From Winogradskyella sp. PC-19 (GTDB lineage Bacteria; Bacteroidota; Bacteroidia; Flavobacteriales; Flavobacteriaceae), in the NCBI RefSeq assembly GCF_002163855.1, contig NZ_CP019332.1, forward strand, positions 2,397,145 to 2,461,144: a stretch of 64,000 nt of DNA. The letters run 5' to 3'. The translations under genes and the position numbers were made by a program. Shown here piece by piece: positions 15,221-63,657 of the stretch; the first letter of the stretch is position 1, and every line of letters starts with the position of its first letter. The notes under the pieces were generated by a model. It had not been told where the DNA came from, ran no database searches, and worked only from the letters and a program-made list of their open reading frames with translations.

Positions 15221-15946
15221 ATGAATCTTATAGTAGACGTCGGTAATACGCGTGTGAAATTTGCAGTTTTTGATAATAATCTTCTCAAATGGAAGAAGAG
15301 TTTCCTGCTTTCTGACTTAAAAACAGAATTTGAAGCTGTAATAAAACAATTCCCAAAAACTAAAAGGGCGATAGTATCTTCTGTAGGTCGCTTATCTAAA
15401 AAAGATATTGCTATCATAAAAAAAGATTTAAAACTCCTTGAATTAGATTCAGAAACAGAAGTTCCTTTTCAAAATAATTATAAAACACCAAAAACTCTAG
15501 GTGTTGATAGAATTGCCTTAGTTAGTGGCTCTGTGCTAAAATCCCCAGATCAAAATGTATTAATTATTGATGCTGGCACTTGTATTACTTACGATTTTAT
15601 TACAGATAAAAATGTATACCTAGGCGGTGCTATATCTCCAGGGCTAAGACTACGCTATAAGTCTTTGAATAATTTAACAGCAAATTTACCGTTGTTAGAG
15701 ACTAAGGTTCCAAAAAGGATAACCGGTAATACTACAGAATCATCTATTCATTCAGGTGTAGTTTTAGGAACAATCTATGAGATTGATGGTATTGTTAAGG
15801 CATACAGCGAAAAATATTCAGATTTAACAGTTATTTTAACAGGAGGAGATGCCAAAATGTTGTCTAAACAATTAAAAAGTAGCATATTTGCCAACTCGGA
15901 TTTTCTGCTTGAAGGTCTAAATTATATTCTAGAATTTAATTCGTAA
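15221..15946 (+). CDS. coaX: Type III pantothenate kinase
   Basis: A cytoplasmic ASKHA-fold kinase that phosphorylates pantothenate, the first step of coenzyme A synthesis. The 241-aa protein has the phosphate-binding start L-I-V-D-V-G-N-T-R-V-K-F, G-V-D-R-I-A-L at about residue 95, the second phosphate motif I-I-D-A-G-T-C-I-T-Y-D near 115, and L-G-G-A-I-S-P-G-L near 133. GTG at 15215 is in frame, but ATG 15221 gives the usual N-terminus. It opens an operon with an outer membrane protein, a TPR protein and lptC, an arrangement common in Flavobacteriia. Confidence 0.95.
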   Translation: MNLIVDVGNTRVKFAVFDNNLLKWKKSFLLSDLKTEFEAVIKQFPKTKRAIVSSVGRLSKKDIAIIKKDLKLLELDSETEVPFQNNYKTPKTLGVDRIALVSGSVLKSPDQNVLIIDAGTCITYDFITDKNVYLGGAISPGLRLRYKSLNNLTANLPLLETKVPKRITGNTTESSIHSGVVLGTIYEIDGIVKAYSEKYSDLTVILTGGDAKMLSKQLKSSIFANSDFLLEGLNYILEFNS

Positions 15947-15948
15947 TA

Positions 15949-17274
15949 ATGATTAAAAAATTTGTTGTAGTTCTTATTGCAATAGTTGGTTGCTACTCTT
16001 ATGCTCAGCAAGGTACTGCATCACCATATTCTTTTTATGGTATAGGTAGCTTGAAATTTAGAGGAACTGTAGAGAATCGTGGAATGGGTGGTATAGGTTC
16101 TTACATTGATAGCTTACATATCAATTTAAGAAACCCAGCTTCGTATGCAGGCAAAAACTTAAAAGCTGACCCTTATAATGGTGAGAGTAGACCAGTTAAG
16201 TTTTCAGTTGCTGGTTCATTTAGTAGTATAGGATTAGAAAGTAATACCGAATCGGAAAGTGCAGGTACATCAACATTTGATTACATAGCTGTATCAATTC
16301 CTTTAGGAAGATTTGGAGCAGGTTTTGGTTTGTTACCTTTTACTTCAGTAGGTTATAAACTTCAGGATATTAACTCAGCTCAAAATAATAGAATAGACTA
16401 TAGATATGAGGGCGAAGGAGGTCTGAATAAAGCTTTTTTTAGTTTAGGTTATCTTGTGAATGATAATATATCAGTTGGTGTAGATGCTAATTATAATTTT
16501 GGAAATACTCAAAATAGTGCTATTCAATTTGTTTATGACAGCGATGGAAATATCGTACAATTTGCAACAAGAGAAAATAACCGTTCAGATTTAAGTGGTC
16601 TCAACTTTAATATCGGAGCTGCATATAAAGGAAAAATAAACGAAAAATTAGAGTTATCAGCAACAGCAACTTATTCACCAGAAAGTAGCTTAAATTCAAT
16701 TAATGACCGCTCGATATCTACACTAATAGTCTCTACTCTTGGTGATGAGTTTGTTCAGAATACTATAGATGTAGACTTAGCAGCAAGTAATTTAGATGAA
16801 ACAGAATTAGATTTGCCATCTAGATTGTCATTAGGGCTTGGTATAGGCCAAACATCGAAATGGTTTATCGGAGCCGAGTACGTAGCTCAAAACACGAGTG
16901 TATTTAATAATCCAATATTTAGTACAACTAATTCTTCTTTCGAAGATGCGTCATCATTTGCTATTGGTGGTTTTTATTTGCCAAACCACAGGTCGCTTTC
17001 AAGTTACTTTAAACGAGTTACTTATAGAGCTGGAGCAAGATTCGAAAATACTGGTTTAGTAGTAAATAATGAATCTATTGATGAGTTTGGCATATCTTTT
17101 GGATTAGGATTACCAATAGGACCACAGTCAGGATTGTTTTCTGAAGTAAATCTTGGTTTTGAGTATGGACAAAGAGGTACTAAAAACAGAGATTTAATAC
17201 AAGAGAAATTTTTTAACTTCAATGTCAGTTTATCGCTAAGTGACAGATGGTTCCAGAAAAGAAAATATAACTAA
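15949..17274 (+). CDS. Predicted outer membrane beta-barrel protein
   Basis: A 441-aa protein with a cleavable signal peptide (MIKKFVVVLIAIVG...YAQ) and a mature part made of alternating amphipathic strands ending in a typical barrel C-terminus, resembling FadL/PorV-type barrels of Bacteroidota. The start contains S-P-Y-S-F-Y-G-I-G and R-G-M-G-G-I-G, common in flavobacterial transport-type barrels. It starts two bases after coaX and is followed 15 bp later by the TPR protein, so they are co-transcribed. Function is not known; a role in outer membrane biogenesis is suggested by the neighbouring lptC. Confidence 0.75.
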   Translation: MIKKFVVVLIAIVGCYSYAQQGTASPYSFYGIGSLKFRGTVENRGMGGIGSYIDSLHINLRNPASYAGKNLKADPYNGESRPVKFSVAGSFSSIGLESNTESESAGTSTFDYIAVSIPLGRFGAGFGLLPFTSVGYKLQDINSAQNNRIDYRYEGEGGLNKAFFSLGYLVNDNISVGVDANYNFGNTQNSAIQFVYDSDGNIVQFATRENNRSDLSGLNFNIGAAYKGKINEKLELSATATYSPESSLNSINDRSISTLIVSTLGDEFVQNTIDVDLAASNLDETELDLPSRLSLGLGIGQTSKWFIGAEYVAQNTSVFNNPIFSTTNSSFEDASSFAIGGFYLPNHRSLSSYFKRVTYRAGARFENTGLVVNNESIDEFGISFGLGLPIGPQSGLFSEVNLGFEYGQRGTKNRDLIQEKFFNFNVSLSLSDRWFQKRKYN

Positions 17275-17289
17275 CAAAAAATTAGAAAG

Positions 17290-18657
17290 ATGAAGACTAA
17301 AATTACATTAATCCTTATAGCTCTTGTCTTTGGCTTTAACACAAGTTACGGTCAGCAAGACGAAGAGTGTATGAATCACCTGTCTATTTTCAGTTCTTAT
17401 GTAAAGAACAAAAAATATGACGAAGCCTATGAGTCTTGGATGAAAGTGAAGACTAAATGCCCTCAATTTAATAGAAATATTTATGTAGGTGGTGAAAAAA
17501 TCTTAGATCACAAAATCAAGAATGCAACAGGTGCAGAAAAAGTACAGTTTATTAAAGATCAGTTAGCCTTATTTGATGATTACAATAAATATTACGCATC
17601 TAAGCTTCCGTTAGGAAAATTACAATACGAAAAAGGAAATCTATCTTATACCTTTAAAAAGGAGTTAGGTTTATCTGATGAAGAGCTTTATAAGATTTTT
17701 GATAAAGGATATACAGAAGATTTAAAGAACTTTAAAGATGCAAAAGCTTTATATACATATTTTACTCTTAAGGTTAATATGTATGAAAAAAGTTCAAAGT
17801 CAACAAAAGATACTCAAGACTTATTTGATAAGTATGATGATATAACTGATAAGATCGAATATGAGGTTGGTAAAGCTTCTGAAGGCTTGAATAAAATTAT
17901 TACAAAAGAAGAATCTGGGGCAACTTTAACAAAAAAAGAAGGTCAGTATAAGCGCTTTTACGAACAAACTCTGAGTGCTTATGATAAAATCTCAGGAAGT
18001 TTGGATACAAAAATTTCTGAATTAGCAACTTGCGAAGTTCTTATTCCTTTATATCAAAAAGATTTTGAAGAAAATAAAAATGATACAAAGTGGTTACAAC
18101 GTGCAATGAATAAGATGGGACAGAAAGATTGTACTGATGATCCAATGTTCGAAAAATTAGTAGCTCAGAAAAATACTGTTCAGCCTGATGCAACAACTGC
18201 ATACTACTTAGGTGTTTTGAACGAGAAAAAAGGCAACATGTCTGAAGCTAACAAATATTATACACAAGCAGAAAGCCTTGAAACTGACCCAATTAAAAAG
18301 TGGAAATTTGTTTATGCAAGAGCTGATAAAAACAGAAAAGCAGGTAGATTAGGTAAAGCAAGACAATTATACAGAGAAGCATTAAAGCTTAACCCATCAA
18401 ACAAAAATCCTTATTTAAGAATTGCAGGTATGTATGCATCAAGTGCCAATAATTGTGGTTCTGATGCGTTTGCTAAAAGAGCCGTGTATTGGGCAGCAGC
18501 AAATGAAGCAGCAAAAGCTGGTGGTTCTGGTGCTAGTGCAGTAAAAAGATACAAAGCTTTAGCTCCTGATAAAACTATGGTTTTTTCTAAAGGAATGAAT
18601 TCTGGTGATTCAATCAAAATTGGATGTTGGATTGGAGTTACTGTTCGTGTACCTTAA
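17290..18657 (+). CDS. Secreted tetratricopeptide-repeat protein
   Basis: A 455-aa protein with a signal peptide (cleavage near SYGQ, residue 21) and TPR-like helical repeats, clearest at about residues 300-390 (AYYLGVLNEKKGNMSEANKY, then A-R-Q-L-Y-R-E-A-L-K-L-N-P-S). The C-terminal segment is Gly/Ala-rich and ends in a basic-hydrophobic tail. It probably works in the periplasm as a protein-protein scaffold. It lies between the beta-barrel gene and lptC in one operon, which hints at a shared envelope-assembly function, but no specific role can be given. Confidence 0.72.
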   Translation: MKTKITLILIALVFGFNTSYGQQDEECMNHLSIFSSYVKNKKYDEAYESWMKVKTKCPQFNRNIYVGGEKILDHKIKNATGAEKVQFIKDQLALFDDYNKYYASKLPLGKLQYEKGNLSYTFKKELGLSDEELYKIFDKGYTEDLKNFKDAKALYTYFTLKVNMYEKSSKSTKDTQDLFDKYDDITDKIEYEVGKASEGLNKIITKEESGATLTKKEGQYKRFYEQTLSAYDKISGSLDTKISELATCEVLIPLYQKDFEENKNDTKWLQRAMNKMGQKDCTDDPMFEKLVAQKNTVQPDATTAYYLGVLNEKKGNMSEANKYYTQAESLETDPIKKWKFVYARADKNRKAGRLGKARQLYREALKLNPSNKNPYLRIAGMYASSANNCGSDAFAKRAVYWAAANEAAKAGGSGASAVKRYKALAPDKTMVFSKGMNSGDSIKIGCWIGVTVRVP

Positions 18658-18664
18658 TAACTAA

Positions 18665-19219
18665 ATGAAAATAAAAAAAATACATATTATATTTAATACA
18701 GTCACGGCATTAGTCGTGACTGTATTTTTTTCATGTAAAAATAACTTCAAGGATGTTCAGCAAGTAGGTGTATTACAAAACGAGCCTGTTGGAGTTGCAG
18801 ATACCATTAATTTAAAGTACACAGATTCTTTTCAGTTAAGAGCAAATTTATTGAGTCCAAAAATGCTCGATTATTCTAATCGTGATTTTGCATTCTCAGA
18901 ATTCCCAAAAGGAGTGGAGCTAATAATTTATGATAATGACGGTAACAAGAGTAGAATCTTTGCCGATTATGCCATAGTTTACAGCGAAACAGATTTAGTG
19001 GATTTAAGAGGTAACGTCATCTTAGCAACTCATAAAAAAGATTCGTTGTTTACCGAACAGATGTATTTTGACCAGACAAAAGAATGGGTTTTTACAAATA
19101 AAAATGTCCGATTACGCTCTGAAGGAACAGATATCAACGGCATTGGCTTTGATTCAGACAGAAACTTTGAAGAATACGAGATGTTAGCTATGCAAGGTGA
19201 TATCGAAGTCAATAATTAA
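18665..19219 (+). CDS. lptC: LPS export protein LptC
   Basis: A 184-aa LptC-family periplasmic protein that passes lipopolysaccharide from the LptBFG extractor to the LptA bridge. The N-terminus is a lipoprotein-like signal (FFSCKNN, Cys at about residue 23), usual for Bacteroidota LptC. The mature jellyroll shows repeated strand pairs: VELIIYDNDG, SRIFADYAIVYSETDLVDLRGNV and the closing G-I-G-F-D-S-D-R-N motif. It starts 7 bp after the TPR gene. A strong terminator-shaped hairpin lies inside codons 11-22, which may limit its transcription relative to the upstream genes. Confidence 0.88.
   Translation: MKIKKIHIIFNTVTALVVTVFFSCKNNFKDVQQVGVLQNEPVGVADTINLKYTDSFQLRANLLSPKMLDYSNRDFAFSEFPKGVELIIYDNDGNKSRIFADYAIVYSETDLVDLRGNVILATHKKDSLFTEQMYFDQTKEWVFTNKNVRLRSEGTDINGIGFDSDRNFEEYEMLAMQGDIEVNN
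18695..18731 (+). promoter_or_regulatory. Terminator-like hairpin inside the lptC signal-peptide codons
   Basis: AATACAGTCACG and CGTGACTGTATT form a perfect 12-bp stem with an 8-nt loop, followed at once by a run of T. This is the classic shape of an intrinsic terminator, yet it lies 30 bp inside lptC. It could act as a partial terminator or attenuator between the upstream genes and lptC. Confidence 0.55.
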
Positions 19220-19247
19220 CTACCTTTGTGCTTTAATATTTAGAGTT

Positions 19248-19442
19248 ATGCTTAAAGCACTAAAATTTTTTCAATACGCATATATCATATTCGCAATAAT
19301 GTTTGCCTGGGACGCCATTTCAAATTGGTCAACAGACAGAAGTCGTAGTTATATATCGTTATTATTTGCAGCACTTGCAGTATTTATGTTTTTCTTTCGT
19401 AAGCGTTTCAGAAAAAAGTTTGATGACCGTCAGAAAAAATAA
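19248..19442 (+). CDS. Small two-helix membrane protein
   Basis: A 64-aa protein with two predicted membrane helices (about residues 7-23 and 36-50) and a strongly basic C-terminus (RKRFRKKF). ATG 19248 is chosen because upstream in-frame options would overlap lptC. It sits 28 bp after lptC and 3 bp before the DUF21/CBS gene. Such small proteins occupy the same place in related genomes, but no function is known to me. Confidence 0.7.
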   Translation: MLKALKFFQYAYIIFAIMFAWDAISNWSTDRSRSYISLLFAALAVFMFFFRKRFRKKFDDRQKK

Positions 19443-19445
19443 TCT

Positions 19446-20735
19446 ATGACGACTGATGCTATAATAATCATTCTTTCATTAGTATTATCCGCCTTTTTTT
19501 CAGGAATGGAAATTGCTTATGTTTCGGCAAATAAAATTCACATAGAGTTAGAGAAGAAACAAGGTGATTTTTTAGGTAAATTATTAGGAAAACTTACAGC
19601 AAAGCCATCAAAGTATATTACGACGATGCTCATTGGTAATAATATAGCTCTTGTAATTTATGGTTTTAAAATGGGTGAGGTTTTGGTACAATGGTTCAAA
19701 ACTTTTATACCGTCAGAGTATAATATTATTAATTATCTGTTTTTAGATTTAGAGTTATTATCACAAACTGTAATTTCTACTTTAGTCATTTTACTTACAG
19801 CAGAATTTTTACCAAAAGTGTTTTTTCAGATTTATTCTAATACTTTACTTAAGTTTTTTGCGCTTCCAGCTTATATATTCTATCAATTATTTTCATTTAT
19901 TTCTGAATTTGTAATTAGGATTTCAGATTTTATATTAAAGACATTCTTTAAAACTGAAGGTGATGCAGTAGAATTGGCTTTGACAAAAGTCGAGTTGGGG
20001 AATTTTATTACAGAGCAAATGGAGTCTGTCGAAGAACACGATGAGGTGGATAGCGAAATTCAAATATTTCAGAATGCACTTGAATTTACTGAAGTAAAAG
20101 CTCGCGAAGTTATGGTGCCGCGTACCGAAATAACAGCAATAGATATTTCGGATTCTATTGAAAATTTACGTCAGTTGTTTGTAGATACTGGATACACTAA
20201 AATTTTGGTTTATAAAGATTCGATGGATGATATTTTAGGTTATGTACATTCTTTTGAGTTATTCAAAAAGCCAAAAAGTATCAAGTCTATTTTAATAAAA
20301 GTAGTATTTGTTCCAGAAACAATTTTGATTAAAGATGTACTAAATTTATTGACCAAAAAGCGTAAAAGTATTGCTGTAGTTATCGATGAGTATGGAGGTA
20401 CATCAGGCGTTATGACCGTTGAAGATATAATAGAAGAGTTATTCGGTGAGATTGAAGATGAGCATGATAGCGTAGCTTTAACGGAAGAGCAACTTGCTGA
20501 AGATAGTTATAATTTTTCAGCCAGATTAGAAGTCGATTATCTTAACGAAACCTATAAAATCAATCTTCCTGAGGGAGAATCCTATGAAACTTTAGGTGGA
20601 TTAATTGTCAATCATACCGAAGAAATTCCTCAGTTAAAAGAAACGATTATTATCAAAAACTTTAAGTTTACAATAACAGAGGTTTCATCAACAAAAATTG
20701 ATAGTGTTCATCTTAAATTAATACCTGAAGATTAA
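19446..20735 (+). CDS. DUF21/CBS-domain membrane protein (CNNM/CorC, GldE-like)
   Basis: A 429-aa protein of the CNNM/hemolysin-C family. The N-terminal DUF21 region has three to four membrane segments with the opening L-S-A-F-F-S-G-M-E-I-A-Y, the family signature. A pair of CBS domains follows (about 205-330; V-M-V-P-R-T-E-I and the second domain with V-I-D-E-Y-G-G-T-S-G) and then a CorC_HlyC domain at the C-terminus. The family includes magnesium/cobalt transport proteins and the flavobacterial gliding protein GldE; sequence alone does not decide between them. Confidence 0.88.
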   Translation: MTTDAIIIILSLVLSAFFSGMEIAYVSANKIHIELEKKQGDFLGKLLGKLTAKPSKYITTMLIGNNIALVIYGFKMGEVLVQWFKTFIPSEYNIINYLFLDLELLSQTVISTLVILLTAEFLPKVFFQIYSNTLLKFFALPAYIFYQLFSFISEFVIRISDFILKTFFKTEGDAVELALTKVELGNFITEQMESVEEHDEVDSEIQIFQNALEFTEVKAREVMVPRTEITAIDISDSIENLRQLFVDTGYTKILVYKDSMDDILGYVHSFELFKKPKSIKSILIKVVFVPETILIKDVLNLLTKKRKSIAVVIDEYGGTSGVMTVEDIIEELFGEIEDEHDSVALTEEQLAEDSYNFSARLEVDYLNETYKINLPEGESYETLGGLIVNHTEEIPQLKETIIIKNFKFTITEVSSTKIDSVHLKLIPED

Positions 20736-20834
20736 TCCCTTTTTATTAGACCAAAAAAGAAGCGACATCCTTTTATTATTTGGTATAAAATGTTATTTTC
20801 GCACACTTAATTTCAACAAATTATATACCATAAA

Positions 20835-22979
20835 ATGGCAGTTTTAAATAAAATCAGACAGCGTTCGCTAGTATTAATTTTAGTAATCGCATTGGCATTA
20901 TTTGCTTTTGTTATTGGAGATGTTTTTAGAAACTTAGATTCTAATGGCGGTCCTCAAGACATTATAGCAACAGTAAACGGTGAAGACATCAAAAGAGAAC
21001 CATTTATGTTTGCAGTGCAAAATATGCAGCAACGTACAGGTCCAAATACTTCAGAAACTCAAGTAAAAAACAATATTTACAACCAAGAGTTAAGACGTAT
21101 AATAATGAATTCTGAGTTCGAAAAATTAGGGCTAACTGTTGAGAAAGATAAAATGCGTCAATTGTTAGAAACAAGTTTTGGTAATTATCCAGAGTTTCAG
21201 AATCAAGACAGTATTTTTGATGTTAATAAGCTTAATGCGTTTATTGCCAACTTAAAAGATATTCAGCCACAAGGTGCGCCTTTAAGTACTTTTACTATCA
21301 ATTATGCGCAGTGGACTAACAATGAGCAATCATTAGCTAATAACTCATTAACGCAACAGTATTACAACTTAGTAAAAGCTGGTGTCAATGCAACTGTAAC
21401 TGAAGCTGAAGATGATTATGCAGCTGGAGCTCAAACTCTAGATTTAAAATATGTTCAAGTTCCATATACAACGATTGCAGACAGTTTAGTGACTGTAACC
21501 AAGTCAGACATTAAGTCGTACATGGAAAGAAACAAAGAAACTTACAAAGTAGATGCTACTAGAGAAGTTTTATTTGTTGAGTTTAAAGAAGAAGCTTCTG
21601 TTGAAGATGAAGATGCTATTAAATCTGAACTTTTAGCTCTAAGAAGCGATAGACCAGAATTTAATGAAACAACTAAAGCTGTTGACACTGTATTTGGTTT
21701 TGATAACACTAAAAATATCGAAGCTTTTGTAAATTCTAATTCTGATATTAAATATTCAGCTGACTTTTTTAGACCTGCGCAATTAGGTGCTGCTAAAGAC
21801 AGTTTGTCAAATACAGCTATTGGCGAATATTATGGGCCATATAAAGATGCTGGTTACTACAAGTATTCTAAAGTATTAGATAAGGCAAGCAAAGCTGATT
21901 CTGTAAAAGTACGTCACATTTTAATTCCTTTCGCTGGTGCATCTAGTGCTGGACCTGATGTTGTAAAAACAAATGAAGAAGCAAAAGCAACGGCAGACAG
22001 TATTTACAATGTATTAAAAGGTAACCGTTCTAAATTTACAGATTTATTAGAATTATCTTCTGATAAAGTGAGTAATGAAAAGGAAGGTGTTATAGAATTT
22101 GCATACAACCAAGGATTTGCACCTGCTTTTAAAGCGTATTCTTTTGATAATAAAAAAGGAGACATGGGTGTAGTTGAAACAAGTTTTGGTCACCACATCA
22201 TCGAAATACTAGACCAAACAGCTTTCAATAACACATTACAATTAGCAACTGTAGCACGTAAAATAGAGCCTTCAGAAAAAACAAACGATGATGTTTTTAA
22301 CGCAAAACAAAAATTTGAAATTGCTGCTGAAACAGGAGATTTTAGAGAATTAGCTGCTGAGCGTAATCTTGCTGTTAAGCCAGTAACTTTCAAAGAGCTT
22401 GACGAGAACATTCCTGGATTAGGAAGTCAAAGACAGGTAGTGCGTTGGGCATTTGATAACGAAACTAAAGTTGGTGACTACAAGAGTTTCACAGTAGCTG
22501 GTGTTGGTTTTATTGTTGCACAGTTGGTTGATGTTAATGAAGAAGGTTTGATGAGTGTAGATGATGCTACTGCTACAGTAAGTACAGCTGTTCGTAATGA
22601 GAAGAAAGCAGAAATGATTCGTGAAAAAATTACTGCTGGTGCATTAGCTGATATTGCTACTGCACAAGGACAAACTGTAAAATCTGCAACTGGAGTTACA
22701 ATGAGTAACACTACTTTATCTGGTGCAGGTGCTGAACCTAAAGTAATTGGTGCTGCATTTGGATTACAAGAAGGTGAAGTTTCTAAGCCTATTGATGGAA
22801 ATAGAGGTGTATATGTTTTAGAGGTTACTAAAGTAAATGAAGCTACTAAATTAGAAAACTATGCTGCTATAATAGCACGTTTAAGTAATACTCGTAAAAA
22901 CGGTGTACAAACTAAAGTATATTCTGCACTTGAAGCTGCTGCCGAAATTGAAGATAATAGAGCAAAAACAGTATACTAA
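20835..22979 (+). CDS. PpiD/SurA-like periplasmic peptidyl-prolyl isomerase
   Basis: A 714-aa foldase anchored by one N-terminal membrane helix (about residues 12-30), with a SurA_N-like region (ATVNGEDIKREPF, about 45-190) and a parvulin (PpiC) domain starting at V-R-H-I-L-I-P-F near residue 360. It assists folding of exported and outer membrane proteins. It is 99 bp downstream of the CBS protein, so it may have its own promoter. An intrinsic terminator follows. Size and layout match PpiD-type proteins of Bacteroidota rather than soluble SurA. Confidence 0.9.
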   Translation: MAVLNKIRQRSLVLILVIALALFAFVIGDVFRNLDSNGGPQDIIATVNGEDIKREPFMFAVQNMQQRTGPNTSETQVKNNIYNQELRRIIMNSEFEKLGLTVEKDKMRQLLETSFGNYPEFQNQDSIFDVNKLNAFIANLKDIQPQGAPLSTFTINYAQWTNNEQSLANNSLTQQYYNLVKAGVNATVTEAEDDYAAGAQTLDLKYVQVPYTTIADSLVTVTKSDIKSYMERNKETYKVDATREVLFVEFKEEASVEDEDAIKSELLALRSDRPEFNETTKAVDTVFGFDNTKNIEAFVNSNSDIKYSADFFRPAQLGAAKDSLSNTAIGEYYGPYKDAGYYKYSKVLDKASKADSVKVRHILIPFAGASSAGPDVVKTNEEAKATADSIYNVLKGNRSKFTDLLELSSDKVSNEKEGVIEFAYNQGFAPAFKAYSFDNKKGDMGVVETSFGHHIIEILDQTAFNNTLQLATVARKIEPSEKTNDDVFNAKQKFEIAAETGDFRELAAERNLAVKPVTFKELDENIPGLGSQRQVVRWAFDNETKVGDYKSFTVAGVGFIVAQLVDVNEEGLMSVDDATATVSTAVRNEKKAEMIREKITAGALADIATAQGQTVKSATGVTMSNTTLSGAGAEPKVIGAAFGLQEGEVSKPIDGNRGVYVLEVTKVNEATKLENYAAIIARLSNTRKNGVQTKVYSALEAAAEIEDNRAKTVY

Positions 22980-56291: not shown

Positions 56292-56333
56292 CCATTCGTC
56301 GACACTTAACTGCCATCCAACGACACTTAATCT
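56292..56333 (+). promoter_or_regulatory. 21-bp-period direct repeat upstream of the H-NOX phosphorelay, probable LytTR operator
   Basis: Two adjacent 21-bp units begin CCATTCGTCGACACTTAAC and CCATCCAACGACACTTAAT; they agree at 15 of 21 positions and share CGACACTTAA. LytTR-domain regulators bind pairs of short direct repeats about two helical turns apart. The unit end lies 41 bp before the -7-like TACCTTG at 56374 and 75 bp before the first gene. A similar pair precedes the T9SS gene at the same distance. Confidence 0.6.
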
Positions 56334-56373
56334 CGCTTAACCGAAATCAAAATTATAAGTATAGTACATAATT

Positions 56374-56380
56374 TACCTTG
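56374..56380 (+). promoter_or_regulatory. -7-like element of the phosphorelay operon
   Basis: TACCTTG resembles the Bacteroidota TAnnTTTG element with a deviation. It lies at the same distance from the repeat operator as the better match upstream of the T9SS gene. Confidence 0.4.
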
Positions 56381-56407
56381 CATTATTCTAAAATGTAAAA
56401 ACTGATT

Positions 56408-56821
56408 ATGATACCTCTTAAAATAATGCTTATTGAAGATGATATGATTGAAGTGATGAAGCTAAATAGAGCAACTAGTTCACTAAAATTAAACCATAAA
56501 ATAATCGAAGCTAATAACGGAGAAGAAGCACTTAAAGCTCTTGAGCAAAAGGATAATCTTCCAGACATTATTTTGTTAGATTTAAATATGCCTAAAATTA
56601 ATGGTATAGAATTTTTAAAAATTCTAAAAACTGACGAAAGGCTAAAATATATACCTACCATAATATTAACCACCTCCAATAATCAACGTGATTTATTGGA
56701 GTGCTACAAAATAGGTGTAGCTGGTTACATTCTAAAACCATTAAAATATGAGGAGTATGTTTTTAAAATAGAAAAATTATTATCATATTGGAGTATTAAT
56801 GAATTGATTAAAGTATTATGA
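56408..56821 (+). CDS. Receiver-only (CheY-like) response regulator
   Basis: A 137-aa single-domain receiver with acidic pocket E10-D11-D12, phospho-acceptor Asp58 in L-L-D-L-N-M-P, the T-T-S switch near 86 and Lys in L-K-P-L near 109. It has no output domain, so it likely relays phosphate, here presumably from the kinase to the Hpt protein. Its stop overlaps the H-NOX start (ATGA). Confidence 0.93.
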   Translation: MIPLKIMLIEDDMIEVMKLNRATSSLKLNHKIIEANNGEEALKALEQKDNLPDIILLDLNMPKINGIEFLKILKTDERLKYIPTIILTTSNNQRDLLECYKIGVAGYILKPLKYEEYVFKIEKLLSYWSINELIKVL

Positions 56822-57357
56822 AAGGAATAATATTTACCGAGTTTTTAGAATTAGTTGAGAATAAATTTGGTCTTGGCATGGTCGATAAAATCATCAACCA
56901 GTCAGAATTGAAGTCTGGAGGTGTTTACACTTCAGTAGGTACATATGAATTTTCAGAAATGCTACAGCTTATATCTCAACTGAGTGAAAATACCGATATA
57001 TCTGTCGATGATTTACTTTTAGTCTACTCTGAACATCTATTTTCTGTTTTAATAAACTCTTATCCCAGTTTAATTGAGCATTACAAAACCCCTATGGATC
57101 TTTTAGCATCAATTGAAAACCATATACATGTAGACGTGCAAAAAATTTATACAGAAGCACAATTACCTACTTTTGAACTAGAAGAACGTACAGAAACTAA
57201 AATGGTAATGGTTTACAAATCTGATAGAGCTTTATACATGCTAGGTAAAGGATTAATGCTAGAAACATTTAAACTCTTTAACATCCCTGTGGATATTAAA
57301 TTTGAGAAACTTAATGATGATGGCACAGAAGTAAGATTTTTTATAAATAAAAAATAA
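56818..57357 (+). CDS. H-NOX heme nitric oxide sensor
   Basis: A 179-aa HNOB/H-NOX protein that binds heme and senses nitric oxide in the cytoplasm. The heme-ligand His is His104 in E-N-H-I-H-V-D-V by alignment with soluble guanylate cyclase, Pro117 is the conserved heme-bending Pro, and Y133-K-S-D-R137 is the Y-x-S-x-R motif that holds the propionates. The position of the distal Tyr found in O2-binding members appears to be Leu142, which suits a NO-selective sensor. It is the second gene of a five-gene relay operon. Confidence 0.93.
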   Translation: MKGIIFTEFLELVENKFGLGMVDKIINQSELKSGGVYTSVGTYEFSEMLQLISQLSENTDISVDDLLLVYSEHLFSVLINSYPSLIEHYKTPMDLLASIENHIHVDVQKIYTEAQLPTFELEERTETKMVMVYKSDRALYMLGKGLMLETFKLFNIPVDIKFEKLNDDGTEVRFFINKK

Positions 57358-57362
57358 GGATT

Positions 57363-59825
57363 TTGGAGGAAGTAGATATTCTTAAAAGAGCACTGGTTAG
57401 AGAAAGAGCCTCAAGAAAGGCTGCTGAAGCTATTCTAGAGGCTAAATCTGCTGAACTTTATAACCTGAATAAAAAATTAGAAACCTCACATGAAAAACTT
57501 AATGTCTTATATAATAAGACTACCTCTCAACTTCAAGGTGTTTTTGAAAATATAGTAGATGCTTATGTGATTATGGATTTATGGGGTAATGTTTTAAAGA
57601 TGAATGATGCCGCTGTAGAATTGTTAGGATTTCAAAGTGCTAAAGATGATTATAATTTAATAAAAATTGTCAATCCTAAAGAAGTACATCGCATAGCTCC
57701 TGCATTTAGGACTTTAAATGAAAAAGGTTCTATTACAGATTTTAAAATAAAGATAGTTACGCTAAAGAAAGAGCACAAACTTATTCATATTAATGCCAGT
57801 ATCATCTATGAAAACAATATTCCCGTTGCCGCCCAAGGAATTATTAGAGATATAACATTGGATAACAATTATCAATTAGCAATTGAAAGCGAGAAACAAA
57901 AGTATAGTAATGTAATAGCCAATATGAATCTTGGTTTAGTTGAAGTAAATAACAACGATGAAATTTTGATGGTTAATCAAAGTTTTGAAATTATGTCTGG
58001 ATATTCAGCAAAAGAACTTATTGGAAAAAAAGGATCAGAACTATTCTTTGAACCTAGCAATAATACTATTAATTCAGAAACAAGAAAACGAATTAGAGGG
58101 GAATCCAGTTCTTATGAATTAAATGTAAAGACTAAAGCTGGTGATTTACGTTGTTGGCTTGTAAGCGGTGCACCTAATTATGATGCAAAAGGAAATGTAA
58201 TTGGTTCTATTGGAATTCATTTAGATATAACGGAAGGAAAAAGAAACTTAAAACTATTAAAAGAGAAAAAAGATGAATTAGATATCATTTTAAATAATGC
58301 CTCCATAGGAATTGTGCTTGGAAAGAATGAAAAAATTTTGAGAACAAATCCAAGCTTCAATAAAATGTTAGGATATAAAAGCAATGAACTATTTGGAAAA
58401 AATATGAGTCATATCACAGTATTAGATGATTTTTATGAGAATCAACATAATTTAGATAAATTAAGTCAAGGACTAATTGATAACTTTATAATCAATAAAA
58501 GATTCAGATGTAAAGATAAATCTTATATATGGGCAAGGACCAATGTTTCTGGAGTACGAGATTACAACGGAGAATTAAAATATCAAATAGCAACAATAGA
58601 AGATATAACTACAGAAAGGAATAAGTCTTTGATTTTTCAAATGATTAATAATTTGACAAAATCGATTTTAGGTAAAATAAATGTAAATGAATTAGCATGG
58701 GAAATCGTTAATATTTTGGGAGAATATTTACAAACGGAAGATTGTGTAATTTATGTTGTTGACAATACTAATAAAACGCTACAACAAGTTGCGGCGCTAG
58801 GGAATAAATTGGATGAAGATAAAAATATTTTAAATAAATTAACTTTTTCATTTGGAGAGGGAATTGTCGGTGAGGTGGCTAAAACGGGAAAGTCAGAACT
58901 GATAAAAGATACTTCAAAAGATAGTAGATATGTTATAGACGATAAGATGAGATTTTCAGAGATAACAGTCCCAATAATTAGAAATAGCAAAGTAATAGGA
59001 ATTATAGATGCTGAGCACATAAATATAAATTATTTTACCAAAGAACATTTGAAAACATTAGAAAGTGTTGCTCATATAGTAGGAATACAAATAGAAACAG
59101 CGGTTAACATTAGTAAAAGAGAAAAAGCAGAAGCAACAAATAATGAGTTATTAGAAAAATTAGAAAAAAGTAATTTTGAATTGCACGAATATGCACACAT
59201 TGTCTCACATGATTTAAAGTCACCTCTCAGAAGTATTAATGCTTTGGTAAATTGGCTTAAGGAGGATAATCAAGATAAATTTGATGAAAATAGTCTTCAA
59301 AATTTATCTCATATTGAAGCTATATTAGAAAAAATGGAACTTTTGATTTCTAATGTCTTGGAATATTCCGGTATTAATTCAAATGATTATGACACTGAAT
59401 ATGTAGATTTAAATGAGCTTATAAATGAACTTTCAAAGATTTTATTAATTCCTAAACATATAAAATTTAATGTTACAAGACGACTTCCGATTGTAAAAGG
59501 TGATAAGGTTAAATTGCAGCAACTCTTTCAAAACTTAATTGGAAATGCTATTAAGTTTAATGACAAAAAGGAGGGCTTAATAGAACTAGATATAGAAGAT
59601 GAAAATTCATTTTTTCAGTTTTCTATTAGTGACAACGGTATGGGAATTGAAAAACAGTATCACGACAAGATTTTTAAGATGTTCAATGCTTTAAATAAAA
59701 GTAAAAATTCCACAGGTATTGGACTATCCATCGTTAAAAAAATAGTAGACTTGTATAAAGGTCAGATTTGGGTTGAATCCGAATATGGTAAAGGTACAAC
59801 CTTTCACTTTACACTTAAGAAATAG
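57363..59825 (+). CDS. PAS-PAS-PAS-GAF sensor histidine kinase
   Basis: An 820-aa soluble histidine kinase, start TTG, five bases after the H-NOX gene. Order: an N-terminal coiled coil (about 1-55), three PAS domains (about 60-170, 180-295, 300-415), a GAF domain (about 430-580), HisKA with His616 in S-H-D-L-K-S-P-L-R, and a HATPase with N-L-I-G-N-A-I-K-F, D-N-G-M-G-I and G-I-G-L-S-I-V. No membrane segment and no receiver are present. H-NOX proteins commonly control the kinase encoded beside them by direct contact; this is inferred here. Confidence 0.93.
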   Translation: MEEVDILKRALVRERASRKAAEAILEAKSAELYNLNKKLETSHEKLNVLYNKTTSQLQGVFENIVDAYVIMDLWGNVLKMNDAAVELLGFQSAKDDYNLIKIVNPKEVHRIAPAFRTLNEKGSITDFKIKIVTLKKEHKLIHINASIIYENNIPVAAQGIIRDITLDNNYQLAIESEKQKYSNVIANMNLGLVEVNNNDEILMVNQSFEIMSGYSAKELIGKKGSELFFEPSNNTINSETRKRIRGESSSYELNVKTKAGDLRCWLVSGAPNYDAKGNVIGSIGIHLDITEGKRNLKLLKEKKDELDIILNNASIGIVLGKNEKILRTNPSFNKMLGYKSNELFGKNMSHITVLDDFYENQHNLDKLSQGLIDNFIINKRFRCKDKSYIWARTNVSGVRDYNGELKYQIATIEDITTERNKSLIFQMINNLTKSILGKINVNELAWEIVNILGEYLQTEDCVIYVVDNTNKTLQQVAALGNKLDEDKNILNKLTFSFGEGIVGEVAKTGKSELIKDTSKDSRYVIDDKMRFSEITVPIIRNSKVIGIIDAEHININYFTKEHLKTLESVAHIVGIQIETAVNISKREKAEATNNELLEKLEKSNFELHEYAHIVSHDLKSPLRSINALVNWLKEDNQDKFDENSLQNLSHIEAILEKMELLISNVLEYSGINSNDYDTEYVDLNELINELSKILLIPKHIKFNVTRRLPIVKGDKVKLQQLFQNLIGNAIKFNDKKEGLIELDIEDENSFFQFSISDNGMGIEKQYHDKIFKMFNALNKSKNSTGIGLSIVKKIVDLYKGQIWVESEYGKGTTFHFTLKK

Positions 59826-59828
59826 AAA

Positions 59829-60146
59829 ATGCAACAACCAAATTTATCATATTTAAAAAGCATGTCTGATGGTGATAAGGTTTTTCAGCAAAAATTAATA
59901 GATATCATAAAGTCTGAGTTTCCAATAGAGAAAAAACATTACCTTAATAATATTAAAGATAAAAATTTTAAAGCAACAGCTGAAAATGTTCATAAAATTA
60001 AACATAAAATTAGTATTTTAGGACTTGTTAAGGGTTATGAAATAGCGGCTAATTATGAAAATAACCTAAATCAAAATAGTACTAAGGGTAAAGCTGAATT
60101 TGAATCTATATTAAAGTTAATAACAAAATTTTTAAAGACCATATAA
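59829..60146 (+). CDS. Hpt phosphotransfer protein
   Basis: A 105-aa histidine phosphotransfer domain. The likely phospho-His is His55 in V-H-K-I-K-H-K-I-S-I-L-G, the Bacteroidota variant of H-x-L-K-G. Freestanding Hpt proteins pass phosphate between receivers, here between the CheY-like protein and the LytTR regulator. It starts three bases after the kinase gene. Confidence 0.85.
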   Translation: MQQPNLSYLKSMSDGDKVFQQKLIDIIKSEFPIEKKHYLNNIKDKNFKATAENVHKIKHKISILGLVKGYEIAANYENNLNQNSTKGKAEFESILKLITKFLKTI

Positions 60147-60155
60147 ACCTACTTT

Positions 60156-60872
60156 ATGAATTGTATTATTATTGATGATGAAGCGACAGCAAGAGCTATA
60201 ATTTCTCAATATTGCTCAAATGTCTCAAGTTTGAATATGTTGGAAGAATTTTCAAATGCAATGCAAGCCATAAAATATCTTAATCAAAACATAGTAGACT
60301 TAATATTTTTGGATATTCATATGCCAGATTTTACAGGTTTTGATTTTATAGAAACTTTAAAAAATATACCAAAAATTATCCTTACCACATCAGATGCTAA
60401 TTTTGCTATACTAGCATTTGAGTACGATTGTATTGTCGATTATTTGGTAAAACCAATAACACCAGAACGTTTTCAAAAAGCAATTCAGAAAGCAGAGTCT
60501 TCACCAACTGTAAAAAAATCTACTGGAGAAAGTTCTACTGAAAAAGTCGAAACGACATCAGGCAATGATTTGTATGTCAATATCGATAGAAGACTTATTA
60601 AAATCGATATCCCAAGTATTTATTTGGTAGAAGCCAAAGGCGATTATATCCATGTAAAAACAGAAGATAAAAATTATACAGTACATTCAACGCTTAAAAA
60701 AATTGAAGAGAAATTACCAGATAGCTTATTCCTTAAAGTACATCGTTCATATATTATTAACGTCGATAAAATTATTGATATCGAGGATAATAGTGTGCTT
60801 ATAAAAAAGGATGTGATACCTGTAAGTCGTTCAAATAGACCTGAGTTAATGAAAAGACTAAATTTACTTTAA
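60156..60872 (+). CDS. LytTR response regulator
   Basis: A 238-aa two-component regulator: receiver with D7-D8 and Asp53 in F-L-D-I-H-M-P, a linker rich in Ser/Thr (about 125-140), and a LytTR DNA-binding domain (about 145-238) with I-Y-L-V-E-A-K-G-D-Y, L-K-V-H-R-S-Y and P-V-S-R. It is the output end of the operon. Repeat operators of the expected type lie upstream of this operon and of the next gene. Confidence 0.94.
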   Translation: MNCIIIDDEATARAIISQYCSNVSSLNMLEEFSNAMQAIKYLNQNIVDLIFLDIHMPDFTGFDFIETLKNIPKIILTTSDANFAILAFEYDCIVDYLVKPITPERFQKAIQKAESSPTVKKSTGESSTEKVETTSGNDLYVNIDRRLIKIDIPSIYLVEAKGDYIHVKTEDKNYTVHSTLKKIEEKLPDSLFLKVHRSYIINVDKIIDIEDNSVLIKKDVIPVSRSNRPELMKRLNLL

Positions 60873-60874
60873 AG

Positions 60875-60916
60875 CCATTGGTCGATAGTAAACGGTCTTC
60901 CGTCGCTTCCATTTCT
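60875..60916 (+). promoter_or_regulatory. 21-bp-period repeat upstream of the T9SS gene, probable LytTR operator
   Basis: The first unit, starting CCATTGGTCGATAGTAAAC, agrees with the first unit upstream of the phosphorelay operon at 16 of 21 positions; the second unit keeps CCGTCG at a 21-bp offset (GTCG at 60881 and 60902). The pair ends 41 bp before the -7 element and 72 bp before the start codon. Confidence 0.6.
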
Positions 60917-60956
60917 ATGCCAATCGAAAATTAATAAATAAACTCTGATAGCTAGA

Positions 60957-60964
60957 TAGTTTTG
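60957..60964 (+). promoter_or_regulatory. -7 promoter element of the T9SS gene
   Basis: TAGTTTTG matches TAnnTTTG exactly, 24 bp before the ATG. No -33 element is evident, consistent with an activator-dependent promoter using the repeats upstream. Confidence 0.55.
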
Positions 60965-60988
60965 TTTCATATTATTAAATGAAATAGA

Positions 60989-63592
60989 ATGAAATCAGAA
61001 CTTTACACTTTAAAAAATCAACTAAGATTAATCCTAATATTAGCATTAAGTTTTATTGGTCAAGCACAAGAAGGAGAACCTTTTTACTGCGATTATAATG
61101 CTTACTTATTTCAGTACAATGATGTTTTTGCCATAGACTTGGCTTCTGGTGACTCTTATAGAGTAGCAACAGATATAACTCCAGGTAATGTTAATGCAGC
61201 AGCTTATAATCCTGCAGACGGATACATTTGGGGTTCTTTATCATCACCTGCAAAATCTATTGTAAAGATTGGTAAGGATTTTTCTACAACAACGTATTAC
61301 ATTGAAGAATTGCCTAACAATGGAAGGTATATTGGAGACGTAAGTGCTACTGGAATGTATTTCCTAAAAGGTGGCGGAACAACCTATTACAAAATAGATT
61401 TAGACCCAGAATCTTCAACTTACATACAGCATAATGCTACAGAAAGCCTGTCTCAAAATATCAGTATTCACGATTGGGCATTTAACGCAGTAGATAATCA
61501 ATTATATACAGTAGAAAAGAACTCGAATATACTTTACAGAATTAATCCTGATAATGGACAAGTAACATCATTAGGTGTTGTGCCAATTTTAGATGGTAAT
61601 AATTATACGTATGGTGCTGTATATTTTGATGCAGACGGACGTTTTTACGTGTCGGCAAATCAAACAGGAACGATATATGTTATTCAAGCTGTGCAGAATG
61701 TGAATAGTGCTGATGATATGGAATCTAACCTGTTTGCTTTTGGACCATCGAGTGCCAGTAACGATGGTGCGCGTTGTCCTACAGCGCCAGTATTACAAGA
61801 AGATTGTGATAATGGTATTGATGATGATGGCGATGGACTTATTGATTGCGAAGACCCATCATGTTCTGGTTTTGGTTCTTGTGAGGTTATAGAGCCACCT
61901 GTTTCTGGTGGAGATGGCGGCGGATTAGAAAGTAATAATCGCCTATCTGAACAGATTAATAAGCGTAATTTTAATCGTGCGAAATCTGGTTATACATTTA
62001 ATAGAAGTACAGCACCAAGGTTCGAAAGACCGCAAAGTTACTTGCAGCGTAATACCGACAATTCGTTTACCCTAGAAGACTTTATTCCTGTAGGTGTTAT
62101 TGGCGAGACTGAAGCTATTAATTCTTCGCCAACAGATTTATTAGAGATTACAAATGCAACAGAGATATTCGCAGTAGATTATATGAATGTCGATACGCCT
62201 ATTGCCACCATATTAGCATTAAAAACTGAAGATGGAGTTTACGAACACACTAAATATATTTGTGATCGTTTATTAGGAGCTGAGTTAATAACAGTGTCTA
62301 CAATAAATATTAATGAGCAGCAGTTTATTAAATCTGTAATAAAAAATCCTGATGGTACACATGAGTTTGTATTAAGCTTATCTGCAAAAGTGATTAATAA
62401 TGATGCTGAATTTGCTATAGAAAGCCACTGGAATTTAGATAAGTACGAAGAAAATACAACGTTCTATAATTTTCAGATATGGGCTAATACTGTAGACGAT
62501 TTATACTTATTAGGCGCCGAGGTTTTAAACCTATTGGCTATCGAAAAGCCAATTGTAGATTACAATAATTCTGAACCACCAGTAGTATTTGTAAGAAAGG
62601 GAGAATACAACAATGGCGGATTAGACTTGCAAATTATAAATATCAATGCAACACAGAGCGTCAACTTTGATGCGGGCTATAGAACTTCTGAAACAGCTGA
62701 GTTTAGTAACCTTAATATGGATATTGACTTAAACGGGCAATACCTAACTAACATTAGAGTAGAAACTGGACTATTATTTGATATTGGTTTTAGAATCGGT
62801 GATGGCATCACTACACCAGACGATTTGTTTATGTCTGATGGCCCTTGGGGATTAGACGATTCTCAAGAAGGAACAAATATAGATAGTTATGAAATTACAA
62901 CTAATGACTATACTTTTGCTGAGCAAGACAGGCCAATAGAACGTAATGTTTATTTAGACGCTACAACAAATACTTATGTTGCTGTTTATAGAGCTTTGAC
63001 ACCACGTTTTAAAGCTATAGACTTAACCACCTTTAGTAGTTTAAAATTTAAAGCAAAAGGGACAGGGCAATTAGAAATCGCTTTTGTTAAGGAAAGTATC
63101 ACTGATTGGGGCCAACAATTTAAAAGAACAGTTACGTTATCCGATACTTGCCAAACCTATTTGCTGCCAATTGAAGAGTTTGCTTCTAGCACAGGAAACG
63201 GCTCGCTCGACGATGTAGTTACATTAGTGTTTACAATGGTATCTCAAGACGGAACATTAGTAAATAAAAAAATGACTTTAGAGAATTTAAGACTCTCGAA
63301 TAACAATGCATTATCAGTAGAAGATTTTTCTAGTGACGTATCAGAATTAAGAGCATTCCCTAACCCAATGGATACGCAAACAGAATTGCAATTTACAGCT
63401 GCACAAAACGAAACAATCAGTTGTATTATTTACAATACACTTGGTAAAGAAGTGTACAAGACAACTTTTGATGCAAAATCTGGTAAAAATAGTATGACCC
63501 TAAAAAATGAAGGCTTAGTCCCGGGCTTATACTTCTGTAAGTTGCAAAGCCAATACAATGATTACAAAATAATAAAGCTATTAGTGAAGTAG
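60989..63592 (+). CDS. T9SS-exported multidomain protein with propeller-like N-terminus
   Basis: An 867-aa secreted protein. A signal peptide (cleavage near IGQAQ, about residue 27) is followed by a propeller-like region (about 35-250, DUF6923-type), an Asp-rich loop (D-C-D-N-G-I-D-D-D-G-D-G-L) at about 270 resembling calcium-binding thrombospondin-type repeats, a central region of unknown fold, a possible beta-sandwich (about 650-780), and a C-terminal type A sorting domain (A-F-P-N-P-M, then G-L-Y-F-C-K-L and K-L-L-V-K). The last is the export signal of the type IX system. No enzyme motif is recognised. Its promoter shares a repeat with the LytTR operon before it. Confidence 0.85.
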   Translation: MKSELYTLKNQLRLILILALSFIGQAQEGEPFYCDYNAYLFQYNDVFAIDLASGDSYRVATDITPGNVNAAAYNPADGYIWGSLSSPAKSIVKIGKDFSTTTYYIEELPNNGRYIGDVSATGMYFLKGGGTTYYKIDLDPESSTYIQHNATESLSQNISIHDWAFNAVDNQLYTVEKNSNILYRINPDNGQVTSLGVVPILDGNNYTYGAVYFDADGRFYVSANQTGTIYVIQAVQNVNSADDMESNLFAFGPSSASNDGARCPTAPVLQEDCDNGIDDDGDGLIDCEDPSCSGFGSCEVIEPPVSGGDGGGLESNNRLSEQINKRNFNRAKSGYTFNRSTAPRFERPQSYLQRNTDNSFTLEDFIPVGVIGETEAINSSPTDLLEITNATEIFAVDYMNVDTPIATILALKTEDGVYEHTKYICDRLLGAELITVSTININEQQFIKSVIKNPDGTHEFVLSLSAKVINNDAEFAIESHWNLDKYEENTTFYNFQIWANTVDDLYLLGAEVLNLLAIEKPIVDYNNSEPPVVFVRKGEYNNGGLDLQIININATQSVNFDAGYRTSETAEFSNLNMDIDLNGQYLTNIRVETGLLFDIGFRIGDGITTPDDLFMSDGPWGLDDSQEGTNIDSYEITTNDYTFAEQDRPIERNVYLDATTNTYVAVYRALTPRFKAIDLTTFSSLKFKAKGTGQLEIAFVKESITDWGQQFKRTVTLSDTCQTYLLPIEEFASSTGNGSLDDVVTLVFTMVSQDGTLVNKKMTLENLRLSNNNALSVEDFSSDVSELRAFPNPMDTQTELQFTAAQNETISCIIYNTLGKEVYKTTFDAKSGKNSMTLKNEGLVPGLYFCKLQSQYNDYKIIKLLVK

Positions 63593-63620
63593 AGTTTCAT
63601 TAATGATTTGGTTTGATGGG

Positions 63621-63657
63621 CAGAAGGCAAAAGCGAAAGCTTTTGCTTTCTGTTTTT
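63621..63657 (+). terminator. Intrinsic terminator after the T9SS gene
   Basis: CAGAAGGCAAAAGC and GCTTTTGCTTTCTG form a 14-bp stem (one G-T pair) with a GAAA loop, followed by six T. Confidence 0.9.

Follow-up and report, generated by a model that had tools for sequence, protein, structure and literature searches.

Conserved three-unit repeat arrays as the probable operator of a LytTR regulator encoded with a putative H-NOX phosphorelay in flavobacteria

LytTR-type regulators bind operators built of direct repeats of 9–11 nt separated by spacers of 11–13 nt (excerpts of PMC4847170), and in AgrA, HdrR/BrsR and YpdB these repeats lie upstream of the promoter, with HdrR also regulating its own operon (excerpts of PMC4847170, PMC6193735 and PMC4227749). 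LytTR Regulatory Systems (LRS) have autoregulatory direct repeats of the same type, and there the LytTR protein is paired with a membrane protein (excerpts of PMC6193735). The CO-responsive LytTR proteins RcoM-1 and CoxC use three direct repeats spaced by about two turns, and CoxC senses CO with its own N-terminal domain and represses (excerpts of PMC11347149). In Vibrio fischeri, H-NOX and its neighbouring kinase HahK act through the Hpt domain of SypF, likely by phosphotransfer, on the syp polysaccharide genes, and NO inhibits in this circuit (excerpts of PMC8738867).

LytTR operators, triple repeats and relays from NO to polysaccharide are each already known, and at the locus described here they would be combined. 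RcoM-1 is, like CoxC, a one-component sensor, and known H-NOX circuits typically use c-di-GMP enzymes. The window (the whole 64-kb stretch of DNA analysed) shares with RcoM-1 and CoxC the three direct repeats and, probably, a link to a gas, but its LytTR protein would end a phosphorelay headed by a protein of the haem NO-sensor type. Its arrays fit the LytTR rule in unit length and in spacing, with a period of ~21 bp, and stand just upstream of a promoter at a fixed distance. They differ from the operators of AgrA, HdrR/BrsR and YpdB in their core CCATTCGTCGA, in having two or three units and in keeping their distance to a Bacteroidetes −7 box rather than to −35/−10 elements; autoregulation, as in HdrR, is predicted here. 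The locus resembles the syp circuit in its H-NOX gene beside a kinase gene and, as predicted, in phosphotransfer through Hpt and in polysaccharide as an output. It differs in that the output regulator is a LytTR protein encoded in the same operon, and in that T9SS cargo and, for relatives, a candidate small RNA are among the predicted targets. Assignment to the LRS class was rejected, as the operon (REC, H-NOX, histidine kinase, Hpt-like protein, REC-LytTR) has no gene for a LytTR-paired membrane protein. Among the matches listed in searches of the open literature, we found no H-NOX/LytTR regulon of such a combination in Bacteroidetes and nothing on such a regulon under H-NOX/NosP with polysaccharide; open-literature searches for H-NOX in Flavobacteriaceae found none, and those for LytTR-polysaccharide control in Flavobacterium found nothing on such a regulon.

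The window is similar to Winogradskyella/Psychroserpens DNA. The genes concerned, and the hairpin that follows them, are:

56408–56821, + strand: stand-alone response-regulator receiver (REC), first gene of the relay operon (Response_reg, E = 1.9e-21)
56818–57357, + strand: H-NOX (HNOB) haem NO sensor (HNOB, E = 1.2e-36)
57363–59825, + strand: PAS/GAF histidine kinase (HisKA, E = 5.7e-07; HATPase_c; several PAS and GAF models)
59829–60146, + strand: Hpt-like phosphotransfer protein (Pfam Hpt, E = 0.016, 15.8 bits, below the cut-off of 24.6)
60156–60872, + strand: REC-LytTR response regulator, the predicted operator binder (LytTR PF04397, E = 1.3e-21; REC, E = 5.5e-18)
60989–63592, + strand: secreted protein, DUF6923 with Por_Secre_tail, a T9SS cargo (E = 9.5e-25 and 4e-08)
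63618–63655, + strand: intrinsic-terminator-like hairpin 3′ of the T9SS gene (six found in a scan of 8.5 kb, 2.7 expected)

The content of the operon would supply the components of an H→D→H→D relay, its Hpt-like member scoring below the Pfam cut-off. The putative phospho-residues are at least 95% conserved: D58 of REC (47 sequences), H55 of the Hpt-like protein (53) and D53 of REC-LytTR (48). The hallmark of H-NOX is a proximal His together with a YxSxR motif; H104, Y133 and S135 reach the same level of conservation (44 sequences), while R137 is present in the window's protein and falls outside the at-least-95% list. Each set consists of the loci readable from ATG (46 for REC, 43 for H-NOX, 52 for Hpt and 47 for LytTR) plus the window. 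By sequence, the nearest solved chains to H-NOX are 6bdd and 6bde, which cover the sensor part only and which we take to be Kordia algicida chains. A domain search of the adjoining histidine kinase matched no receiver domain, and the operon proteins of the window gave no match to a GGDEF or EAL domain. When the LytTR protein was compared with solved structures (phmmer), the best 60 of 98 matches all ended by residue 143, before the LytTR domain. The product of the downstream gene carries the C-terminal T9SS secretion signal, and the 8.5-kb scan found no terminator hairpin between the LytTR stop codon and the T9SS start.

Both promoters carry direct repeats with a 21-bp period in three units, the third at +42:

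56292–56312, + strand: relay operator, distal unit CCATTCGTCGACACTTAACTG, with core CCATTCGTCGA (from the sequence; kept in relatives)
56313–56333, + strand: relay operator, middle unit CCATCCAACGACACTTAATCT (from the sequence and the relatives' matrix)
56334–56354, + strand: relay operator, proximal unit CGCTTAACCGAAA (from the sequence; absent from the original prediction)
56374–56381, + strand: −7-like box of the relay promoter, TACCTTGC, which fits TAnnTTGY and not TAnnTTTG
60875–60895, + strand: T9SS-gene operator, distal unit CCATTGGTCGATAGTAAACGG (from the sequence; matrix matches)
60896–60916, + strand: T9SS-gene operator, middle unit TCTTCCGTCGCTTCCATTTCT, degenerate (from the sequence; matrix scan)
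60917–60937, + strand: T9SS-gene operator, proximal unit ATGCCAATCGAAA (from the sequence and the logo of relatives)
60958–60965, + strand: −7 box of the T9SS-gene promoter, TAGTTTTG, an exact TAnnTTTG

TAnnTTGY is motif SM5 of F. psychrophilum (PMC9723704). Judged by the −7 boxes, transcription is predicted to begin near 56386 and 60970. The original prediction had described a pair of units at each promoter, and much of that description can be read directly from the sequence: the first units of the two promoters agree at 16 of 21 positions, and a second unit follows at a 21-bp offset in each, identical to the first at 15/21 positions in the relay promoter and at 8/21 in the T9SS promoter, a likeness that is weak on its own. 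The start codon lies 74 bp (relay) and 72 bp (T9SS gene) beyond the pair, within the 72–75 bp claimed, whereas the gap to the −7 box, given as 41 bp for both, is 41 bp at the T9SS promoter and 40 bp at the relay promoter. The two units exist, but the array has three positions, the proximal one having been overlooked. That the shared geometry is unlikely to arise by chance is a weak statement within the window and a strong one out of sample, in relatives. A degenerate unit built from both distal units has two exact matches in the 64 kb, which are those same two sites, and allowing up to three mismatches gives five matches against 1.72 expected, a count that 4 of 100 shuffles reach. These statistics are modest, so the evidence from the window by itself is weak; moreover, the pattern was picked from its own two hits.

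The strong test is out of sample and uses the 11-mer CCATTNGTCGA, the sole motif taken from the window alone. In 46 of 52 relatives the 200 bp preceding the REC gene contain a match to it with up to two mismatches; the control figures are 6/52 on the reverse strand, 46/1040 in shuffles that keep base composition only and 32/449 upstream of other ORFs. Around these matches similarity peaks at +21 and +42 and more weakly at −21. Two loci were dropped from the upstream sets, L044, which shares a contig with L042 and has an identical match pattern, and L033, where H-NOX stands in another context without a LytTR orthologue.

A matrix trained on 53 relay upstreams, whose scores there are in-sample, places an operator before 49 of these 53 orthologous relay operons. 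With thresholds set just above the maximum in 6.4 million shuffled positions (both strands, dinucleotides kept), it detected 145 sites in 51 of 54 scanned sources (53 loci, six of them extended, and the window), 140 on the strand of the relay operon; in the later operator counts, those of −7 boxes and units included, the six loci were replaced by their extended islands. Exact TAnnTTTG boxes, sought at offsets 0–184 from the 145 sites, lie at two offsets one unit apart in 72 of 79 cases (83–85, 52 boxes; 62–64, 20 boxes; any other offset, 7), and the distance from motif to −7 element is fixed in relatives. At 128 anchored sites, either matrix detected the distal unit 85, the middle 113 and the proximal 119 times, compared with 79, 108 and 85 for the distal/middle matrix alone and 59, 41 and 106 for the proximal matrix alone. 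In relatives the proximal unit is as regular as the other two.

Across 199 Flavobacteriaceae genomes the motif occurs in 62 of the 83 with a LytTR orthologue and in 6 of the 116 without (Fisher 4e-26, kinship not corrected for). It matches at 110 places in all, the reversed pattern at 3; the search pattern was written after the relatives' upstreams had been viewed, and some of the searched genomes contain those loci. Within the 30 genomes that contain the loci, 49 places were found in 24 genomes, against one for the control. The motif clusters near the LytTR gene, 79 of the 110 places lying within 25 kb of the orthologue and 25 lying farther away or on another contig in genomes having one, and it tracks the gene's presence. 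At two mismatches no match was found in 21 of the 83 orthologue-bearing genomes; relaxing the search to three in six genomes gave 23 places, several on other contigs, as expected by chance. In 68/83 genomes H-NOX itself is no more than 8 kb away from the LytTR gene, and of the genomes without the orthologue 5/116 have H-NOX. As 10 of the 83 have no H-NOX match, NO may not be the universal signal. Weaker FIST matches in the 199 genomes, inspected by eye, never lay beside a LytTR orthologue and are excluded from the FIST tally.

We consider it about 85% probable that the LytTR response regulator whose gene lies between both promoters uses the repeats as its operator; this protein would regulate itself, be driven by an NO relay and serve surface genes. 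Conservation of the operator, its clustering round the LytTR gene, their co-occurrence and the fixed −7 distance all point this way and favour the autoregulated regulon originally predicted. Were the likeness of the two promoters chance or a functionless remnant of duplicated DNA, the modest statistics within the window would be unsurprising, but in dozens of species the repeats are conserved and periodic, keep their distance to the −7 box and are linked to the LytTR gene, which contradicts this reading and leaves it a negligible probability. It is also quite improbable that the arrays are bound by some other LytTR paralogue or by a further regulator in incidental control of the island: flavobacteria do have several such paralogues, as 148 of the 199 genomes match the window's LytTR protein at 1e-40, yet among the 116 genomes that lack the orthologue 65 match a paralogue at this threshold and just 6 contain the motif, and most motif places are near the cognate gene. 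An RNA leader element was rejected, as the arrays stand upstream of the −7 box.

The sign of regulation leaves somewhat more room for an alternative, in which the protein is a repressor that stands at the array in the way of polymerase until displaced by the signal. CoxC, itself a LytTR protein, represses in this manner through three direct repeats that overlap the −35 box, although the same source describes the majority of LytTR regulators as activators that bind upstream of −35 (excerpts of PMC11347149). The proximal core ends ~30 bp before the −7 box, both in the window and in the logo of relatives, and so lies upstream of the −33 region rather than over it, while a −33 TTG, whose scarcity would point to an activator, is rare at operator promoters (3/70) though only weakly rarer than at other promoters (16/98). 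On this evidence we regard repression as unlikely and activation by the LytTR protein as the preferred reading.

The regulon had been predicted to include a secreted protein, and the operator precedes 20 of 21 DUF6923 T9SS genes, the window's own included, as well as 7/7 DUF4114 T9SS genes in relatives. While the relay operon and the T9SS gene would belong to it as proposed, the predicted regulon extends in relatives far beyond two promoters, with the operator also preceding polysaccharide genes, a STAS-protein gene and a candidate RNA of ~75 nt unmatched in Rfam. Some island genes have no operator of their own (REC-sugar transferase 0/11, Wzz 1/5, OEP 3/9, flippase 3/7 and group-1 glycosyltransferase 2/5 with one), possibly because some are internal to operons. 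In the window the sole match of the small-RNA model R1 (63581–63653, E = 0.026) is the terminator of the T9SS gene and was rejected; weak R1 matches were left uncounted because in other places the model picks up ordinary terminators and antisense strands as well.

Under the preferred reading the 21-bp period would correspond to one protein contact per two helix turns, which would align two or three LytTR domains along a single face of the DNA. The proximal contact would fall just upstream of the RNA polymerase site, at about −53 to −43 when the −7 box is taken to span −12 to −5. NO, the presumed signal, would bind H-NOX, which would control the histidine kinase; gene content and the conserved phospho-residues suggest that phosphate then passes from the kinase to the stand-alone REC, to Hpt and to REC-LytTR. 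The latter would bind the arrays and most likely activate both the operon that encodes it and the neighbouring gene for a T9SS cargo, and in relatives the same operators may serve the polysaccharide genes, the STAS protein and the candidate small RNA. On balance, with odds slightly better than even, we favour a broader model of a flavobacterial NO switch for the outer matrix, in which a dedicated phosphorelay ending in a LytTR activator replaces the c-di-GMP enzymes. H-NOX would be its NO sensor, joined by a second one where a FIST/NosP-like gene is present, and one operator of fixed geometry would control the relay, proteins secreted by the T9SS, the synthesis of polysaccharide and a small RNA of ~75 nt.

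Through this operator these bacteria probably couple their outer coat to nitric oxide. The analysis provides a target list and a predicted binding code with which to study NO signalling across a large group of marine bacteria; if the model is true, surface polysaccharide and secreted proteins would answer NO by direct control of transcription, and the small RNA would belong to the NO circuit.

The relay operon of the window opens with a stand-alone receiver gene (REC), followed by genes for H-NOX, a histidine kinase with PAS and GAF domains, an Hpt-like protein and a regulator of the REC-LytTR type. The next gene encodes a DUF6923 protein that carries a T9SS tail. The original prediction placed matching two-unit repeats with a 21-bp period upstream of both the REC gene (relay promoter) and the DUF6923 gene (T9SS promoter), in equal geometry. 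Direct reading of the window sequence confirms both units at each promoter, but the predicted count was short, as a third unit comes next in both.

56292, 56313 and 56334: starts of the three units at the relay promoter
60875, 60896 and 60917: starts of the three units at the T9SS promoter
56374-56381: TAnnTTGY box of the relay promoter, at the same operator offset as the TAnnTTTG box of the T9SS promoter

The first units of the two promoters agree at 16 of 21 positions and the start codons follow at 72-75 bp, both as predicted, while the -7-like box, predicted to lie about 41 bp beyond each pair, is 40 bp away at the relay promoter. The T9SS operator begins 2 bp past the LytTR stop codon. Because the repeat-match statistics inside the window alone are modest, we built the case on relatives.

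An H-NOX query yielded 54 loci (designated L0xx), most of them from Winogradskyella and other Flavobacteriaceae, and in 52 a LytTR match lies downstream; the other two are L033, which has a different context, and L040, where the contig stops. L033 is a second H-NOX gene of the isolate that carries L019, 63% identical to that of the window, and no LytTR match was found at this locus. Alignment of the relatives shows that the phospho-acceptor residues are kept in REC, Hpt and the LytTR receiver, and we infer that phosphate passes from the kinase through REC and Hpt to REC-LytTR, a route that would make a full H-D-H-D set. The relay operons of L014 and L020 also hold a FIST-domain gene (presumably NosP-like, by association) and a second kinase (L014:12146-13276, L020:12525-13655), giving two putative NO sensors per relay; no FIST gene was found in the operon of the window. 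Portibacter lacus (L028; Saprospiraceae) has both the operon and the DUF6923 gene, each with its operator, and transfer of this island between orders is possible.

The 11-mer common to both predicted window units, used unchanged with up to two mismatches, was matched in 46 of the 52 relay upstreams of relatives, compared with 6/52 on the opposite strand, 46/1040 shuffles and 32/449 other upstreams. Similarity to it peaked again at +21 and +42, with a weak peak at -21, and a matrix built on the relay upstreams of 52 loci and the window (53 in all) makes three units visible. Scanning both strands of the 54 loci and the window with this matrix yielded 131 site clusters at thresholds set to the maximum over 6.4 million shuffled positions; with L044 left out and six islands extended, the final set comprises 145 sites from 51 of 54 sources, 140 of them on the strand of the operon. 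The arrays are conserved before orthologous genes, with a site upstream of 49 of 53 relay operons (the matrix scan found none at L019, a contig start, L027, L041 and L052) and of 20 of 21 DUF6923 genes.

The distance to the promoter is constant. TAnnTTTG is the flavobacterial sigma-A -7 box according to PMC9723704. Of the 79 exact copies at offsets 0-184 past site starts, 72 lie at 62-64 or 83-85, which upholds the predicted fixed spacing. These two classes lie one 21-bp unit apart: the position of the array is constant, and the matrix is at times aligned one unit further on. Taking the 128 of 145 sites that have a box with no more than one mismatch and applying an identical test at every position, we detected the distal unit in 85, the middle in 113, the proximal in 119 and all three in 65, while four register shifts gave two units in at most 1/128 and three in none. 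Nine sites, all at relay promoters and including that of the window, carry TAnnTTGY in place of TAnnTTTG at 83-85; this is motif SM5 of F. psychrophilum, for which an alternative sigma factor is called most likely in PMC9723704.

A genome-wide search with a two-unit pattern (up to two mismatches) found 49 places in 24 of the 30 genomes holding the loci (reversed pattern, 1), and 110 places in 68 of 199 genomes drawn from the family (reversed pattern, 3). Orthologues of the REC-LytTR gene, which stand clear of paralogues (E of 2e-73 or better; next, 4e-59), are present in 83 of the 199, and the motif occurs in 62 of these 83 as opposed to 6 of the 116 others. Of the 110 places, 79 are no more than 25 kb from the orthologue; 25 lie elsewhere in genomes that have it and 6 in genomes that do not. 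H-NOX is encoded no farther than 8 kb from LytTR in 68 of the 83 genomes, and FIST in 36; 10 of the 83 had no H-NOX match. In G083, one of the six motif genomes in which no LytTR orthologue was found, the motif adjoins an H-NOX gene interrupted by an internal stop, together with a partial FIST match (G083:C9, ~18348-22174), apparently a decaying cluster with the operator still there.

By Pfam family, the first genes after the 145 sites are the relay operon (49), DUF6923 (20) and DUF4114 (8) T9SS proteins, group-1 glycosyltransferase (8), a REC-glycosyltransferase-2 fusion (7), STAS (6), flippase (5), UDP-sugar dehydrogenase (4), outer-membrane export protein (OEP, 4), Wzz, Wzy and another glycosyltransferase (1 each) and others (5), with none after 26. 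Counted per gene in unextended loci, as for DUF6923, a site precedes DUF4114 in 7/7, STAS in 4/6, UDP-sugar dehydrogenase in 4/7, flippase in 3/7, group-1 glycosyltransferase in 2/5, OEP in 3/9, Wzz in 1/5 and REC-sugar transferase genes in 0/11.

Among 130 sites with no more than one mismatch in the -7 box, 106 stand before an ORF and 24 do not; a terminator starts 30-110 nt on in 9 of the 24 versus none of the 106. After the LytTR gene of 14 loci, operator and -7 box are followed by a conserved core near GATTAATAGCAA and a terminator stem, a candidate small RNA of ~75 nt (18 sequences picked by eye, 73-91 nt long when measured from the last base of the -7 box).

Single copy:
L002:13270-13347
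L004:13772-13849
L007:13260-13338
L009:14150-14229
L011:13391-13464
L014:15466-15556
L018:15468-15553
L019:4099-4174
L020:15843-15917
L021:15538-15614
Two tandem copies:
L006:15456-15532 and 15652-15725
L008:15517-15593 and 15708-15785
L010:7361-7436 and 7557-7632
L013:15874-15946 and 16072-16147

L017 may be a fifteenth such locus (E 0.0056). Nine of the 11 terminator-stem pairs carry one or more compensatory changes; no structure was predicted outside the stem, and six loci searched against Rfam gave no match. A model of the RNA had at least 11 matches (E up to 0.001) in 10 genomes, with 150 first-look candidates scored per genome; the seven above 56 bits are its own source copies, beside LytTR, and four weaker ones were not accepted as copies. 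The model found no copy in the window. In the four loci with tandem copies, another conserved non-coding stretch lies 3′ of the second copy, near AACCCCTTAA, followed by a TGATTATTATT-like run and CCTAATTA.

LytTR binding sites are treated in PMC4847170, PMC4227749 and PMC6193735, and CoxC and RcoM-1 are reported to have LytTR operators with three repeats (PMC11347149). A path from H-NOX through Hpt to polysaccharide is given as likely for V. fischeri in PMC8738867. The part of PMC6769237 considered here connects NO with LytTR solely via nitrosylation of AgrA; a search for literature on H-NOX together with Flavobacteriaceae found nothing. The original prediction was correct and understated. 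Binding by the regulator, the sign of regulation and the signal are predicted from sequence, and while the operator type and the logic were already known, their combination and breadth look new.
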